From Lachnospiraceae bacterium (GTDB lineage: Bacteria; Bacillota; Clostridia; Lachnospirales; Lachnospiraceae): 50,575 bases of DNA. The stretch is from assembly GCA_017617545.1 (NCBI GenBank), contig JAFZVZ010000009.1, positions 1 through 50,575 of the forward strand. The letters are read 5' to 3'. The notes under the pieces were generated by a model. That model ran no database searches, had not been told where the DNA came from, and saw nothing but the letters and a program-made list of their open reading frames with translations. The translations under genes and the position numbers were made by a program. Shown here piece by piece: positions 22,143 to 40,857 of this stretch; position 1 is the first letter of the stretch, and every line of letters starts with the position of its first letter.

Positions 22143-23225
22143 TCACGAAGCGTCTTCCTCGTCGCTCTCATCCGGCTCTTCCGGAACCGGAAGCTCCACG
22201 GGCGGGCCCTGCGAGATATCTTCGATCACGTGAGGATCGCCGTCCTGCGTGTCCGCGGAGGTGCTCACGGACTGTGAGCGCGCATTGTCCGCGACAGGGT
22301 ACCGGTCCCGCGGCAGCACCGTGACGGTCAGGTCGTCGACGTAGTAGGAGCAGTACAGGCCGACGCTGTTGGGTGCCTCGTCGTACGTGCCGATGAGAAT
22401 GCAGCCCGCGGGAGCATCGGAAGCTCGCACGGTGACGTAAAATGTGCATTCGGTCCAGGTGCCCTTGGGGACGCGCACCGAGTTGCATTTTACGAAGCGC
22501 TCCTGTTCCTGCATCACGGGGTTGCCTTCCTTGTCGAGCGTCTTGAGGCCGTCCTTGCGGTTGTAGACGTAGTCCAGAGCCATCTCGGTGTGGTACGCGT
22601 CGTACGCCGTAAACCAGATCGCCTCCGGCGCGCCGAAGCCTTCGTCCTCGTAGTAAACCATACAGCGCACGCAGATCACGTGGTCGACAAGCTTGTTGAA
22701 GGTGATGCCGTTGTTCATGCTCAGCTTCAGGCCGAAGCCGCTGAGACCGTGGTATTCCTGCTTGCGGCGGGAAACCTTGACGGAGTAGTAGCCGGAGTAC
22801 GCCAGGCGGTCCGTGGTGTAGATCTCCGCCTCGTTGCAGACATTGTCCGGCGAGAGGCGGTTGCCGAGGTCACGCTCGAAATTGTTGGCATAGAGCATCT
22901 CACCGGGCGCCACCGTCGCGGTCTGAACGAGCTTTCCGTTGAAATCCCAGTACGCCATGGCGTTGTACCAGCCGTCGCTCAGTCCGGAGATGTCCGGGGT
23001 GGGCGTGGGCGGCACAGGGGTCGGCGAGGGGGATACGACGGGCGTCAGAGGGCCGGTCGGAGCCTCGGTCGGTGTCGGGGTAGGAGTGGAAAGCTCGGGA
23101 GTCGGCGTCAGGGCATCGAGATCCTCCGAGCCCGGAAGACCCGCGCAGGCACAGAGAATAAGCGCCAGGCAAAGCGCCAGCGCCGACAGGGTAAGTGTCT
23201 TCATGGTCCGTGCAACGGTCTTCAT
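22143..23225 (-). CDS. Lipoprotein with Pro/Thr linker and CBM-like domain
   Basis: About 360 residues: a signal sequence with lipobox (LILCAC), a long Pro/Thr/Ser linker (residues about 35-80, repeated TPTP), then a beta-rich domain containing LYANNFERDLGNRL, SGYYSVKVSRRKQ, FGLKLSMNNG and, near the end, YYVDDLTVTVLP. The DDLTV end is what family 4/9 carbohydrate-binding modules usually show. The acidic tail is PEEPDESDEEDAS. The ATG at 23223-23225 is chosen because the lipoprotein signal begins there; AAGGAG lies 15 nt upstream, which is loose, so the start is not certain. It is tandem with the related lipoprotein at 23362. Sugar binding is inferred. Confidence 0.85.
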   Translation of the reverse strand: MKTVARTMKTLTLSALALCLALILCACAGLPGSEDLDALTPTPELSTPTPTPTEAPTGPLTPVVSPSPTPVPPTPTPDISGLSDGWYNAMAYWDFNGKLVQTATVAPGEMLYANNFERDLGNRLSPDNVCNEAEIYTTDRLAYSGYYSVKVSRRKQEYHGLSGFGLKLSMNNGITFNKLVDHVICVRCMVYYEDEGFGAPEAIWFTAYDAYHTEMALDYVYNRKDGLKTLDKEGNPVMQEQERFVKCNSVRVPKGTWTECTFYVTVRASDAPAGCILIGTYDEAPNSVGLYCSYYVDDLTVTVLPRDRYPVADNARSQSVSTSADTQDGDPHVIEDISQGPPVELPVPEEPDESDEEDAS

Positions 23226-23295
23226 GGTCTTCGTATAATACTCCTTACTGATTGCGGTCCGGATGCTGTCCGGATCGCGGTCTTTCACAAAAGGA

Positions 23296-23327
23296 GTGGG
23301 TCAGTGAGATGTGTCCCACTGACCCAC
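23296..23327 (-). terminator. Hairpin between the two lipoprotein genes
   Basis: An 11-bp stem GTGGGTCAGTG (23296-23306) / CACTGACCCAC (23317-23327), read leftward, followed by CCTTTTG. It lies 34 nt past the upstream gene's stop and could reduce transcription of the downstream one. Confidence 0.6.
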
Positions 23328-23361
23328 TTAGAGGTCTCAGGATTCCCCGACCGGGGAGAGA

Positions 23362-24186
23362 TTACTCCTCGCCTTCCTCAGCAGGCTTGTGCTCTTCCCA
23401 GTAAGCGTTGAAGGCTTCGAAATCGCCTACGCCGTCGCAAAGCGTGATGGAAAGGTTGTCGATCAAAATGTCTTCCTTGCCGGTTCCGTCCGCGCACTCA
23501 AAGTAAAGCTGAGCGGTGGAGGTGTTGGTCTCAGGATCAACGTAAATGTCATCCGGAAGGAATACGGTGCTCTCGCAGTGTACCCACTCGCCGTTCGAGG
23601 AAATACCGGTGATACGGTTGTATGCAGGATACTGAACCGAATGCTTGCCGGCTTCCTTGTCTTTCCAAGCCTCAAACTTGGTCGTGAGGGAAACGGTCAT
23701 ATCGGTTACGCCTTCCTTCTGGGATACGCACTTCGCATCGAAGCTGATCTTGAAGCCCTTGCCGTACCACTTCTGGTCAACCGTGATCGCGATACCGTTC
23801 CAGGTAGCGGTTCTGCCGGTTGCAAGCAGGCAGTTCGTGCCGTCCTTGCCCTGGCCTACGCCGATTGCGGACATGCCGGAACCAACCTGGTCAAACAGCA
23901 GATACATCAGCTTAGGATCCGCGTTGATCGCACCGACGATATCCTCGGACTTATCCTTCAGCAGAAGACCTTCCGGAGCGGAATCAAAATCGCTCTTGAA
24001 GTAGCAGTTCGGGTCCGGTGTCGGTGTCGGCGACGGAGTCGGCGAATCCGTAGGCAGAGCCTCGGTCGGCGTGTTCGTCGGAGCAGGAGTGGTACCGGAA
24101 TCCGAAGGTGTATTGTTCGCGCTGCCGCAGGCGGCAAGCATGCCGACAACAAGGAGCAGTGTCAGCAATAACGCAATTTTCTTCAT
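23362..24186 (-). CDS. Lipoprotein with Pro/Thr linker and CBM-like domain
   Basis: A 274-aa lipoprotein: signal MKKIALLLTLLLVVGMLAAC (Cys about residue 20), a Pro/Thr/Ser linker to about residue 60, then a beta-sandwich-like domain with YFKSDFDSAPEGLL, CLLATGRTATWNGIAITV, GKGFKISFDAKC and a terminal ILIDNLSITLCDGVGDFEAFN. The order (entry strand, jelly-roll core, late VDN/IDNLSI) resembles CBM4/9 domains and echoes the sister gene at 22143, with which it shares architecture but little direct identity. AGGAGG precedes the ATG by 8 nt. Transcribed leftward from the promoter at 24253-24281, divergent from dapF. Confidence 0.88.
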   Translation of the reverse strand: MKKIALLLTLLLVVGMLAACGSANNTPSDSGTTPAPTNTPTEALPTDSPTPSPTPTPDPNCYFKSDFDSAPEGLLLKDKSEDIVGAINADPKLMYLLFDQVGSGMSAIGVGQGKDGTNCLLATGRTATWNGIAITVDQKWYGKGFKISFDAKCVSQKEGVTDMTVSLTTKFEAWKDKEAGKHSVQYPAYNRITGISSNGEWVHCESTVFLPDDIYVDPETNTSTAQLYFECADGTGKEDILIDNLSITLCDGVGDFEAFNAYWEEHKPAEEGEE

Positions 24187-25339: not shown

Positions 25340-27658
25340 ATGAAACGAAGAAAAGGAAATGACAATCGCATACTGGCGATCATACTGACGGTGATGCTGA
25401 TCTCATCGCTGATGGTTCCGTGCGGTCTCGCCACGCTGTGGCGCGCCAATGCGGACGAAGCCGGCGAGGGCGAAAAGGGAATGGCCGCGTACGTCAACAC
25501 CGCTCCCGGAGCGAACGTAAGAGTGGCGCCCGGGTCCTCGAGCGACTCGGTGAAGGACAGGCGAGGTTTTTCCATCCAGCTTCCCGCCTCGACCATCGTA
25601 CACATCCTGGAGAAGGTGGAGTACAAGAGCGGAAGCGAGACGACGGAGTGGGCGAAGATCCGGTTTGACTACAACGGCGAGAAGGACCTGACCGGATACG
25701 TGATGACGAAGTTCCTGCTGGAATTCAACGAGGTCACCGTGGACGCCGAATTCGAGGCAGCGATGGATGCCCAGGGCTTTCCGGAGTCGTATCGGAAGAT
25801 CCTGCGCGCGGTACACCAGTGGAACCCGACCTGGACGTTCCAGGCGGAGATCCTGGATCTGGACTGGAACACGGCGGTCAACGCGGAGTACGCCAAATGG
25901 CCGACCATCACCAACAACAACGGAGACTACCCCAGCAGCTGGAAGTCCCACGACATGTCGGATTACAACTATGCCGTGGACGACGGCAACGGCGGACTGA
26001 AGGACGGCAACTGGGTGCTGAAGGACGGCCGGTACGCAAGGGCCTCGAAGCAGATGCTCGCGTACTCGATGGATCCCCGCAACTTCCTTGCGGAGTGCAC
26101 GATCTTCATGTTCGAGGATCTGGACTACAACCCGAACGTACAGACGATCACGGGTGTGGAGCGCATCCTCAGCAAATACGATCCCACCAAGAACAGCAGA
26201 GGAACCTTTGCCCAAGAGGTGGAAGGCACCACCCACGCCGCTCTCTTCATGGAGGCGGCGCAGCAGTCCGGCGTCAACCCGTATTTCCTGGCAACCCGAA
26301 GCGTGCATGAGGTCAACAACTCCGACATCATGCGCGGAAACGGCGTGAAGGTAACCGTCAACGGCGAGGAAGTCACCAAATACGTCGGCATATACAACTA
26401 TTACAACTTCGGCTCCTACGCGGCCGACGGCATGGGCGTCATCGAGCACGGACTGTGGTTTGCGGCGACGGCCCAGAGTGCAGCGACCATTCAGAGCCAG
26501 GGTTATGACGACCTTCGGCCGTGGGATACCCGCGCCAAGGCCATCATCGGCGGCGCGTTACGGCTCGGCAACGAGTATGTCCTGATGGGACAGAATACGC
26601 CGTATTACCAGCGTTACAATGTCGCTCCGAAGAAGAACCCGAACAACGGCAAGATCTACGAGCGGTACGGACATCAGTACATGTCGCTTGTGACGGCGCT
26701 CTACCAGGAATCCACGATGTACTACAGCGGCCTGCTGGACGACGCTGCCACCGGCACGGATGCGGCTTCGGCGATCGAGACGCCGTTCACGTTCATCATC
26801 CCGGTGTACAAGAACATGCCGGAGACGCCGTGCGAGCGTCCTACCGGAGACGGCAACCCGAACCCTTACCTGGCGAGCCTCACTATCGAGGGCGTGGAAC
26901 TGTCACCGGCATTTTCCTGGAAGACGCTGGAGTACAAGTTCACGGTGGAGGCGGATGTCGCCACGCTCAATCTGGTCGCGACACCTCTTGCGAGAACGAC
27001 CCAGATCCAGGGAGCTGGGGAGATCAAGCTCCTCTACGGGGAAAATGAATACACCATCAAGTGTAAGGCTCAGGACGGCACGATCGTCCGGTATAAACTG
27101 ACCATCATGAGGAAGGGTGACGGTGAGAACCCCAGCGTGACGCCGACGCCCATTGATGACGATGACTGGGTGAGCCCGACACCGACGCCGGCAGCGGCGG
27201 CAACGGCGACACCGGTACCTGCGACGCCGACACCTACGCCGGAGCAGGAGACGATCACCTCGGAGACCTTCCGGGTGACGGACAAGCAGATCTGCAACGT
27301 AGCGCCGGGAACGGACGTGAAGACGTTCCTCGCCGGGATCACCGCGAGCGGAGGAAGCGCGTCGCTTCTCAACGCCAAGGGTGAGGCGGTCAATGAGGGA
27401 ACCGTGGGAACGGGATGGACGCTGAAGACGGCGACGAAGACCATTCCGGTCATCATCTACGGCGACGTCAACGGTGACGGTGTGATCACCGCGCTGGATC
27501 TTCTGTATGTGAAGAGACACATTCTCGGGATCAGCACCCTCTCCGGCGTTACTGCGACGGCAGCGGCGGTGAAGAGCGAGGGCACGATCGCCGCGATCGA
27601 TCTGCTGTATATCAAGAGGCACATTTTGGGTATTTCCGAGATCTCGCAGGCGCGATGA
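25340..27658 (+). CDS. Secreted N-acetylglucosaminidase with cadherin-like and dockerin domains
   Basis: A 772-aa exported wall hydrolase. After a signal anchor (residues 10-35) comes an SH3-like domain (about 48-128, NVRVAPGSSSDS), then a glucosaminidase domain of the LytD/GH73-like type (about 285-465) with GVNPYFLATRSVHEVNNSD, where E324 is the likely acid, and YNYYNFGSYAADG. A cadherin-like beta-sandwich (about 508-592) and a Pro/Thr linker (598-636) follow. The end is a dockerin-type module: the approach domain 637-705 and two 22-residue loops, GDVNGDGVITALDLLYVKRHILG (calcium ligands intact) and SEGTIAAIDLLYIKRHILG (ligands mostly lost). The ATG is preceded by AAGGAGG. The next gene encodes a cohesin, so the pair probably docks on the cell surface. 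Confidence 0.93.
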   Translation: MKRRKGNDNRILAIILTVMLISSLMVPCGLATLWRANADEAGEGEKGMAAYVNTAPGANVRVAPGSSSDSVKDRRGFSIQLPASTIVHILEKVEYKSGSETTEWAKIRFDYNGEKDLTGYVMTKFLLEFNEVTVDAEFEAAMDAQGFPESYRKILRAVHQWNPTWTFQAEILDLDWNTAVNAEYAKWPTITNNNGDYPSSWKSHDMSDYNYAVDDGNGGLKDGNWVLKDGRYARASKQMLAYSMDPRNFLAECTIFMFEDLDYNPNVQTITGVERILSKYDPTKNSRGTFAQEVEGTTHAALFMEAAQQSGVNPYFLATRSVHEVNNSDIMRGNGVKVTVNGEEVTKYVGIYNYYNFGSYAADGMGVIEHGLWFAATAQSAATIQSQGYDDLRPWDTRAKAIIGGALRLGNEYVLMGQNTPYYQRYNVAPKKNPNNGKIYERYGHQYMSLVTALYQESTMYYSGLLDDAATGTDAASAIETPFTFIIPVYKNMPETPCERPTGDGNPNPYLASLTIEGVELSPAFSWKTLEYKFTVEADVATLNLVATPLARTTQIQGAGEIKLLYGENEYTIKCKAQDGTIVRYKLTIMRKGDGENPSVTPTPIDDDDWVSPTPTPAAAATATPVPATPTPTPEQETITSETFRVTDKQICNVAPGTDVKTFLAGITASGGSASLLNAKGEAVNEGTVGTGWTLKTATKTIPVIIYGDVNGDGVITALDLLYVKRHILGISTLSGVTATAAAVKSEGTIAAIDLLYIKRHILGISEISQAR

Positions 27659-27721
27659 AGCGGATCGTCGGAATACCGCGTGAGATATGAAAACGACACA
27701 GTCGTAAAGGGGGTTAAGATT

Positions 27722-29695
27722 TTGATCTTCAAGAGAAAACTACTGGGAATTTTGTTGACAGCCTGCATGATCGCAGGGCTTTTCGGGCACATGATGACGA
27801 CGGCGTTCGCTGCGGATCCGGCGACGCTCACCGTCTCGGGAGGCAGCTGCGAGGTCGGCCACAGTGTTGAGGTGAAGGTGAAAGTAAGCGCGCCGGACGC
27901 TATCGGTATCGTTCAGTTCACCCTGACGTACGACACGGATATGCTGGAGTGCGAGGGCTACAGCGGCAAGATTCAGGAACTGGATACGGATATCAAGGAC
28001 AAGAGTAAGACATACACGTATAAATTCCGCGGAAAGAAGGAAGGCACGGCATCCATCAAGGTGTCCGGTGTGGAGATCCTTCCTCTGAACGGCGGCGACG
28101 CCTTCGAGGGCGGAGTAAAGGCATCGGACGGTTCCGTCACCGTCAAGGCGCCCTATGTGGCGTCCACCAATGCATACCTGAAGAGTCTTTCCGTGGAACA
28201 GGGCAAGATCTCACCGTCCTTCTCCAAGGATACCTATGAATACTCCATGGAACTCGACGGCAAATACTCCAAAGTTTCGGTTTCCGCGAAGGCCGAGGAC
28301 GACAAAGCTTCGGTGTCCGTCTCCGGAAACAAGGATCTTAAGGAGGGCAAGAATACCGTTTCCGTCACCGTTACGGCTGAGGACGGCAAGACGAAGAAGA
28401 CATACAAGATCACGGTCACGCGCGGACCGGTGCCGACGAGCACGCCGACGCCGTCCCCCTCACCGTCCCCGACACCGACCCCGTCGGCAACACCGACGCC
28501 GGGCCTTACGGTGCAGGTGGACGCGGAGGAGCTGACCCTGATGGATCAGATCACGGCGGAGCTTCCGGAAGGATTTTCCGCTGAGGACACGGACGTTGAC
28601 GGATACCATGTCGCGGTCGCTTCCTCGGACGGTGAGGACACCAAGCTCGTGCAGCTGAGCGACGGCAAGCTCTACACGTACACACGTGCGGACGACGGAA
28701 CGATCACCTGCGCGCCGTACATCACCCTGGGCGGTGACGTGAGAAAGTACCTTTATATCGGAAAGCCGGATTCGGTTGAACTGCCGCAGGGCTTCAGCGA
28801 GAGCGAGGTTACGGCATTTGGGGAGAGGATCCCCGCGTACCGCGCGGATGCGGATTCGACGATGTTTCTCTCGTATCTGCGCAGCCCCGAGGGCAATGAG
28901 GGATGGTACCTGATCGATGCGAAGGAGCAGACGATCCAGCGTTACTCGGAGGAGCTGTACAGCGTGAAGGAGGAGGTTCCTCCGGAGGAGCCGGAGCCGA
29001 CGCCGACGGGCGTTCCGGATGATCCGGAGCAGCCGACACCGCCGGTATCGCCTACGATCGCGCCGAACGGAGACGGCGGCACCAATCCCGCTCCCGTGAA
29101 GTCGACCTCGGGCGGCGGTTTCTGGAAGCTGATCGAGAGCCTTTCGCAGCGCGAGCGGATCGGCGTGGGCATCATCGCCATTCTGCTCCTGCTCTGTGTT
29201 CTTCTCGGGGTCCTTCTGCTGATCGGTCACAACCGTCACGCGAAGGAGTACGACGCTGAGGAGACGGAGGAGGATGACATTCCCGATGAGCCGGTGAAGA
29301 AGAACCGGAAGGGTGAGAAGGCAGCTCTTGCAGCTGCTGTACCTGCCTCGAAGAAGAGCAGGGATGCGGAAGCCGGCAAGAAGCGTCCGAAGAGGGAGTA
29401 TGTCGCCGAGGATGACACCGAGGACGATATGGGAACGACCTTTGACCCGAGACTTCTGGCAGGCGGCGAGGCCGCTCACAAGGCCAATGTCGACAAGGCG
29501 ATGAAGGCGATGAGAGATGCCGAGGTTGCCGAGAAGAAGGCGAAGAAGGCCGTGAAGGAAGCAAAGGAAAGCCTCGACCGCGTAGACGATCCGAAGAAGG
29601 CGAAGAAGGCCGTGAAGGATACGAAGGCGCCCGATAAGGGCAGCGAAAAGAAGTCCGTCAACTACGATGATTACGATGAGGAAGATTATCTGTAA
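27722..29695 (+). CDS. Membrane-anchored cohesin protein with basic/acidic cytoplasmic tail
   Basis: About 657 residues starting at a TTG (27722) that lies 8 nt after GGGGG; the GTG at 27680 has no ribosome site. Order: signal peptide (to about 30), a cohesin-like domain (about 34-143: LTVSGGSCEVGHSVEVKVKV, GIVQFTLTYDTDMLECEGY), a cadherin-like sandwich (about 148-234), a Pro/Thr linker, an unclassified domain (about 262-415), a second linker, one transmembrane helix (about 480-503) and a 150-residue cytoplasmic tail full of Lys, Asp and Glu with a helical AEKKAKKAVKEAKESL repeat. Cohesins bind dockerins; the preceding gene ends in a dockerin, so this is most likely its receptor. The cytoplasmic tail is longer than usual. 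Confidence 0.88.
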   Translation: MIFKRKLLGILLTACMIAGLFGHMMTTAFAADPATLTVSGGSCEVGHSVEVKVKVSAPDAIGIVQFTLTYDTDMLECEGYSGKIQELDTDIKDKSKTYTYKFRGKKEGTASIKVSGVEILPLNGGDAFEGGVKASDGSVTVKAPYVASTNAYLKSLSVEQGKISPSFSKDTYEYSMELDGKYSKVSVSAKAEDDKASVSVSGNKDLKEGKNTVSVTVTAEDGKTKKTYKITVTRGPVPTSTPTPSPSPSPTPTPSATPTPGLTVQVDAEELTLMDQITAELPEGFSAEDTDVDGYHVAVASSDGEDTKLVQLSDGKLYTYTRADDGTITCAPYITLGGDVRKYLYIGKPDSVELPQGFSESEVTAFGERIPAYRADADSTMFLSYLRSPEGNEGWYLIDAKEQTIQRYSEELYSVKEEVPPEEPEPTPTGVPDDPEQPTPPVSPTIAPNGDGGTNPAPVKSTSGGGFWKLIESLSQRERIGVGIIAILLLLCVLLGVLLLIGHNRHAKEYDAEETEEDDIPDEPVKKNRKGEKAALAAAVPASKKSRDAEAGKKRPKREYVAEDDTEDDMGTTFDPRLLAGGEAAHKANVDKAMKAMRDAEVAEKKAKKAVKEAKESLDRVDDPKKAKKAVKDTKAPDKGSEKKSVNYDDYDEEDYL

Positions 29696-39950: not shown

Positions 39951-39961
39951 AAGCGATGCTT

Positions 39962-40045
39962 GCAGTTGTGGCGGAATTGGCATACGCGCATGATTCAGGT
40001 TCATGTCCATGTACTTGGGTGTGGGTTCAAGTCCCATCAACTGCA
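39962..40045 (+). tRNA. tRNA-Leu, anticodon CAG
   Basis: An 84-nt class II tRNA. The acceptor stem is GCAGTTG / CAACTGC with discriminator A40045; the D-arm contains GAATTGGCA; the anticodon stem CATGA / TCATG closes the loop TTCAGGT (anticodon CAG); the long variable arm and GGGTTCAAGTCCC T-arm are present. CCA is not encoded. Confidence 0.95.
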
Positions 40046-40047
40046 GA

Positions 40048-40743: not shown

Positions 40744-40770
40744 AAGCAAGCGTGTTGAAAACAACACTCT

Positions 40771-40853
40771 GCGGACTTGCTGGAATTGGCAGACAGGCAT
40801 GACTAAGGATCATGTGCGCTAAGCGCGTTCGGGTTCAAGTCCCGTAGTCCGCA
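40771..40853 (+). tRNA. tRNA-Leu, anticodon AAG
   Basis: An 83-nt class II tRNA. Acceptor stem GCGGACT / AGTCCGC with discriminator A40853; D-arm with GGAATTGGCAGA; anticodon stem CATGA / TCATG around loop CTAAGGA (anticodon AAG, A34 presumably edited to inosine by TadA); variable arm TGCGC-TAA-GCGCG; T-arm GGGTTCAAGTCCC. CCA is not encoded. Confidence 0.93.
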
Positions 40854-40857
40854 TCGA

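Follow-up and report, generated by a model that had tools for sequence, protein, structure and literature searches.

Gene A encodes a dockerin-bearing glucosaminidase and gene B a membrane-anchored cohesin

We analysed a window of 50,575 nucleotides from a Lachnospiraceae bacterium (GenBank assembly GCA_017617545.1, contig JAFZVZ010000009.1), focusing on two adjoining genes that lie, with all their features, on the plus strand. Gene A (25340..27658) encodes a secreted glucosaminidase of 772 residues with a C-terminal dockerin, and gene B (27722..29695, TTG start) encodes a single-pass membrane protein with a cohesin. Cohesin–dockerin pairs have been studied mainly as cellulosome parts. The original prediction, made from the sequence without database searches, had read this pair as a membrane tether for a cell-wall hydrolase.

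Gene A begins with a signal peptide (25340..25453), cleaved by inspection after ANA, followed by a weak bacterial SH3 domain (25508..25714; Pfam SH3_3 E 0.0036, below its cut-off), the glucosaminidase region (25742..26854), a cadherin-like module (26870..27112; residues 511–591, PF12733 E 4.6e-9), a Pro/Thr linker, a small module immediately 5' of the dockerin (27260..27445) and the type I dockerin (27458..27628; residues 707–763). The small module, which we call PREDOCK and delimited with a profile model built here, is common to many relatives and had no match in the Pfam scan of A. No lipobox was seen by eye in the signal peptide and no membrane anchor was seen in A, so that keeping A at the membrane would require a partner.

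The glucosaminidase region was defined by a match to the solved bifunctional autolysin of Staphylococcus aureus (6fxo; residues 299–429, E 7e-8) and by a second profile model built here. The glucosaminidase family PF01832 was not among the Pfam matches of A. The NCBIfam SagB model, with a cut-off of 425 bits, matched A weakly (19.6 bits, E 4e-4) and gave 46.3 and 38.6 bits on two relatives (L085, E 3e-12, and L078, E 6.9e-10). E324 (26309–26311), by its position the candidate catalytic Glu, is unchanged in 22/22 aligned A proteins. By its sequence, A is a SagB/autolysin-like glucosaminidase with a conserved Glu and predicted activity.

The dockerin exceeds its Pfam cut-off by a wide margin (PF00404, Dockerin_1; E 2.8e-12, 47.1 bits versus 22.9) and contains two repeated calcium-loop–helix motifs, bearing out the prediction of a glucosaminidase that ends in a dockerin. 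Type I dockerins have two equivalent binding faces. The two repeats are 0.80 identical in the window's protein; the median is 0.73 within one protein and 0.27 between genomes. Repeats that are alike within a protein and unlike between genomes fit pressure to keep two equivalent faces.

Gene B encodes a signal peptide (27722..27811, seen in the sequence and as a helix in the structure model), the cohesin (27815..28153), a cadherin-like module (28178..28423; PF12733 E 4.8e-15), a Pro/Thr linker, an unnamed all-beta domain, a second linker, one transmembrane helix (29168..29224, from hydropathy and the structure model) and a charged cytoplasmic tail of 156 residues ending NYDDYDEEDYL (29225..29692). 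The all-beta domain, here termed UNK (28532..28969), was delimited by a profile built here and by strands in the model; it is conserved in relatives, and its fold searches returned listings filled by cohesin matches. Signal peptide and helix are the only hydrophobic segments, and a hydrophobic helix of set strength is found in 115 of the 116 B proteins that are not cut by a contig end. The Pfam cohesin model (PF00963) scored 23.2 bits on the protein, against a cut-off of 24.1, and 29.9 bits in a six-frame search. Fold comparisons identified a cohesin beta-sandwich and ruled out a different fold, which the original prediction had named as its own possible refutation; the domain is type I-like with a clear fold. 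The membrane-anchored cohesin with a charged tail, and the cadherin-like sandwich and Pro/Thr linkers foreseen in both proteins, are thus all present.

The gene pair is widespread among relatives

Of 200 same-family genomes, 112 had a match to B, in some cases over the cadherin-like module only, and 107 a match to A (E<=1e-5). We fetched 58 regions with A and B matches on one contig. A precedes B in all 58, partly by choice because regions were picked for both matches sharing a contig; the dockerin is present on A in 32, and a cohesin model built here matches B in 58/58. A less biased scan used A alone as query on named genomes and kept the top 80 loci from 576 relatives (more exist). B adjoins A in 67 of these 80, with a cohesin match in 65 of the 67 and a dockerin on A in 51. 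The 13 loci without a neighbouring B comprise three on contigs ending <=200 bases from A (L182, L184, L192), six of a Ruminococcus type and four others (L180, L183, L202, L206). The adjacent pair, which the original prediction had suggested looking for in other Lachnospiraceae, is therefore widespread and no local oddity, and its conservation rules out chance or artefact as its origin. At one locus (L187, 60–2273) another small gene set lies upstream of the pair and encodes a dockerin protein together with a membrane protein that has a cadherin-like match.

Beyond the family, a sample of 398 genomes from the phylum gave near-whole receptor ectodomains in five genomes among the matches listed: four of the five same-family genomes listed (counting that of the window) plus one genome of the same class. 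In G432 the ectodomain is fragmented, and the remaining matches are mostly confined to the cadherin-like module.

We then classified the ends of 140 A proteins, or 135 once loci sharing the same final 60 residues of that enzyme region were removed. A dockerin is present in 87, 34 end <=20 residues from the enzyme region or the cadherin-like module, and 14 carry another tail; B accompanies 80, 29 and 12 of these, respectively. Only six changes of the dockerin label are required on a tree built from the enzyme and cadherin-like regions, so the dockerin of A is an old feature that has changed rarely.

Dockerin and cohesin content correspond nearly one-to-one. A genome-wide search (PF00404, E<=1e-4, the 200 family genomes) found exactly one dockerin match in 29 of 32 dockerin-bearing relatives and several in three (G030, two; G051, five; G130, three). 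The sole dockerin sits inside A in 23 of the 32 (among matches listed) and elsewhere in one (G125); for five it falls outside the matches listed (G016, G017, G044, G055, G096). At E<=1e-3 the Pfam cohesin model has no match in 7/32 (G040, G047, G050, G051, G089, G110, G122), and the cohesin of B was found in those seven by the model built here. Other dockerin proteins inspected in the family include a GH9 (glycoside hydrolase family 9) enzyme, a subtilase and a starch-binding protein, so dockerins in the family are not limited to wall enzymes.

Dockerin and cohesin co-vary, and a model suggests a contact

Of the 80 dockerin-bearing pairs, 73 entered a distance test, seven being left out for short or missing domains. 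Dockerin distances correlate with those of the cohesin at 0.48, the enzyme at 0.40, UNK at 0.39, the cadherin-like module of B at 0.32 and that of A at 0.17. The partial correlation is 0.26 with the cohesin, reached in 0/500 permutations, and 0.13 with the enzyme. Dockerin distances thus track the cohesin more than any other domain tested; the cohesin stands out, but not alone.

A dockerin–cohesin chain modelled as a read-through had a predicted local distance difference test score (pLDDT) of 87.8 and a predicted template modelling score (pTM) of 0.70. Its alignment held 54 rows, including 17 dockerin-only and 18 cohesin-only rows from 31 out-of-frame loci. The multi-domain ectodomain of B (55 rows) reached a pTM of 0.45 and a pLDDT of 83.8. 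Two halves placed independently would be expected to give a pTM of ~0.45 by our own rough estimate; judged from pTM and pLDDT alone, the higher value suggests a defined dockerin–cohesin contact, in line with the complex that the original prediction had proposed to model.

Other enzymes lie beside the receptor

Two loci link the receptor to further wall enzymes. In L199, A is followed directly by a gene for a dockerin-bearing S11 D-alanyl-D-alanine carboxypeptidase (E 3e-41), and this in turn by B; the dockerins of the two enzymes are near-identical, with DIFDLVG[VI]RNHII in each repeat. At L278, B adjoins a dockerin-bearing glucosaminidase of family PF01832 (E 3.7e-17), which the A-type model does not match. 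A sister receptor with cohesin and UNK, lacking the cadherin-like module, was inspected at eight hand-picked loci. A LytR_cpsA_psr gene lies just 5' in 6/8; L301 has an acyltransferase instead, and no neighbour was called in L296. No dockerins were recognised in these eight stretches.

B probably docks A at the membrane

Taken together, we consider it probable that B is a membrane receptor that docks the cell-wall enzyme A by a cohesin–dockerin contact, resembling in function the SagB–SpdC complex of S. aureus. The extracellular type I cohesin of B would capture the C-terminal dockerin of secreted A; docking would keep this SagB-like enzyme on the side of the wall that faces the membrane, positioned to trim or release glycan strands, while the cytoplasmic tail of B would touch something inside the cell. 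Signalling by the tail, as the original prediction imagined, is conjectural, as is any purpose of the cutting. For the membrane tether that it proposed, support comes from gene order, the dockerin and cohesin content of genomes, co-variation, the cohesin fold, the read-through model and the second dockerin enzyme of L199, with binding itself being what we infer.

Several observations weigh against this docking. In 41/121 non-redundant A–B pairs A has no recognised dockerin, and nearly all of these keep the cohesin in B; since B is kept there, the contact is not the whole story and other contacts or uses exist. The partial correlation of the dockerin with UNK (0.14) also stood at 0/500 permutations, and that with the cadherin-like module of B was 0.10 (p 0.044), so part of the co-variation signal is not cohesin-specific. 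Calcium loop 1 of the window's dockerin is intact; loop 2 is degenerate, with A, K and E at positions 1, 3 and 5, although a full set of loop ligands is just one among several marks of a type I dockerin. All four ligand positions of loop 2 are kept in 65/87 relatives' dockerins, and only 4/87 keep <=2 of them. The read-through model was assessed by its overall pTM and pLDDT scores, and its linker includes the signal peptide of B. Finally, six Ruminococcus-type A proteins (L150, L162, L165, L169, L174, L194) have a dockerin and no neighbouring B.

The pairs without a dockerin and the UNK signal would also be expected if B held A mainly by other surfaces (the cadherin-like modules, UNK or a C-terminal peptide), the dockerin being an accessory kept in some lineages. 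The universal cohesin match in the fetched regions fits this too, as do the C termini of 9/14 tail-type A proteins, which consist of a short hydrophobic stretch such as SNVTIVP preceded by a Gly/Ser-rich linker. We judge this arrangement unlikely, because the strongest correlation of the dockerin is with the cohesin, and because the element common to the neighbours of B in L199 and L278 is a dockerin and not an A-type enzyme.

The bacterium's own genome holds one cohesin and no cellulosome

A six-frame search of the window's genome found one cohesin match, that of B. Dockerins over the cut-off occur only on contigs C13, C14 and C31, namely in A, in a protein of 1102 residues (C14) and in a frame of 1098 residues (C31). 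The C14 and C31 dockerins are N-terminal, and their helices look unlike those of A. Both proteins (L127, 5949–9254, and L004) are large surface proteins in which the dockerin lies beside beta-sandwich stretches that appear cohesin-like by eye; it is possible that they are other clients of B, or that they are self-contained.

As the genome's other dockerin carriers, these two proteins raise an alternative, in which B's cohesin would serve something else, such as these two, and A's dockerin would engage cohesins on different surface proteins or on other cells. The Ruminococcus-type A proteins without a neighbouring B point the same way, and the genomes of R. albus and R. bicirculans, two that carry such an A, contain other cohesin matches. 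The single cohesin of the window's genome, the dissimilar helices and the lone dockerin match of most dockerin-bearing relatives speak against it, leaving this alternative quite improbable.

A cellulosome-like system for outside polysaccharides is more improbable still, to the point of being scarcely credible. Dockerin and cohesin are of cellulosomal types, and the genome has one GH9 protein, on contig C21. Yet the one cohesin leaves no scaffoldin with several cohesins, the dockerin search listed none on C21, and the docked enzyme is autolysin-like by its 6fxo match. Lacking both a multi-cohesin scaffoldin and dockerin-bearing cellulases, a cellulosome in this genome is ruled out. A search for GH48 gave no match, and its control also matched nowhere, so that this negative carries no weight. 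The original claim that cellulase genes are absent thus holds for the locus proteins scanned and fails for the genome as a whole, given the GH9 gene.

Contig C31 also encodes a second A-like protein (L126, 4185–6941) with four SH3 matches and no dockerin, which falls in a dockerin-less branch of the tree. No B was recognised beside it in the 19-kb stretch fetched.

A tail motif recurs in some branches of the receptor

Tail lengths of B among relatives range from a few to several hundred residues. A C-terminal acidic–aromatic pattern is found in B from 15/76 dockerin-type, 10/12 tail-type and 3/28 short-ended pairs. At the DNA level, DFEFxDx gave 20 matches in 200 genomes, versus four for the reversed control. 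Twelve of the 20 lie <=9 residues from a stop, in seven cohesin proteins, three proteins with other receptor domains and two membrane proteins that are SH3-like by eye; the remaining eight fall within other frames. The acidic–aromatic pattern is absent from the window's B and from its same-genus relative, and a degenerate form of the tail motif had no match in the bacterium's own genome, nor did its reversed control. Because the motif occurs in some relatives' tails and not in the window's protein, some branches may plausibly have a cytoplasmic partner; for the window's B such a contact is conjectural.

The two SH3-like proteins (L304 and L309, around base 1500) have acidic tails and end DFEFLDLK like cohesin receptors. 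Downstream of them are frames that by eye resemble ClpC and a GntR regulator, and some receptors are followed by the same neighbourhood.

More tentatively, and with somewhat more doubt than conviction, B may be one of a family of transmembrane cohesins acting as receptors for wall enzymes, which would couple the cell's inside to wall cutting and building. Its members would lie beside two glucosaminidase subfamilies and once beside a dockerin-bearing D,D-carboxypeptidase, with a sister type beside LytR-CpsA-Psr ligases. The shared motif ~DDFEF[IVLM]D[LI] that ends some branches could plug into one cytoplasmic partner.

Neighbouring genes

The gene dapF ends ~60 bases 5' of A, and an M16C peptidase gene lies 3' of B. 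The order dapF, A, B, M16C is kept in the one same-genus genome fetched, where the flanking proteins are 80% and 61% identical. Promoter-like matches on the plus strand were listed close to the dapF start and within A, with none listed between A and B, in a scan that was weak (five found versus a shuffled mean of 2.1). Elsewhere in the window, two adjoining secreted proteins with Thr/Pro linkers are encoded on the minus strand (22143–24186), one with a CBM_4_9 match over the cut-off (E 1.4e-6) and the other with a weak one (E 0.03). Two tRNA-Leu genes (cag, 39961–40046; aag, 40770–40855) lie ~700 bases apart.

Comparison with known systems

In the SagB–SpdC peptidoglycan release complex, the membrane protein SpdC, a CAAX-protease homologue, holds and orients the membrane-associated glucosaminidase SagB, which trims glycan strands (PMC10581084). 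A resembles SagB, and in both cases a membrane partner holds, or is proposed to hold, a glucosaminidase. The systems differ in that B is a single-pass cohesin protein, A is secreted, and the link would be a cohesin–dockerin contact. No SpdC-like multi-pass partner was found in B, which has a single helix besides its signal peptide; this lowers the case for membership and leaves the functional likeness intact.

A precedent for a surface cohesin that holds a wall-peptidase-like protein comes from Ruminococcus flavefaciens, with RflaF_05439. This protein combines NlpC/P60 modules, whose fold is also that of wall peptidases, with an X-dockerin that binds the cell-surface cohesin ScaE, cited there as the authors' unpublished result (PMC3573020). 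The system belongs to a cellulosome in which dockerins and scaffoldins are numerous, and ScaE is attached by sortase, whereas B is transmembrane.

Cohesin folds outside cellulosomes are also represented by Clostridium perfringens GH84C and Archaeoglobus fulgidus (2jh2, 2w1n, 2xdh). Judging from the structure titles, those of C. perfringens are parts of glycoside hydrolases; in the window the cohesin belongs to a membrane receptor encoded next to a wall enzyme. Cellulosomal type I pairs (1ohz, 1g1k, 2vn5) share the module types and the two-fold repeated dockerin, but here one cohesin faces one dockerin, and a wall enzyme takes the place of a cellulase.

The A–B pair was not named in the openly licensed PMC literature searched; subscription papers were outside that scope, so this is no proof of its being unpublished. 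If the docking of A by B is borne out, the pair would be a Lachnospiraceae counterpart of the SagB–SpdC complex, open to a simple binding test and, through the conserved cytoplasmic motif, to a search for its partner in the cell.
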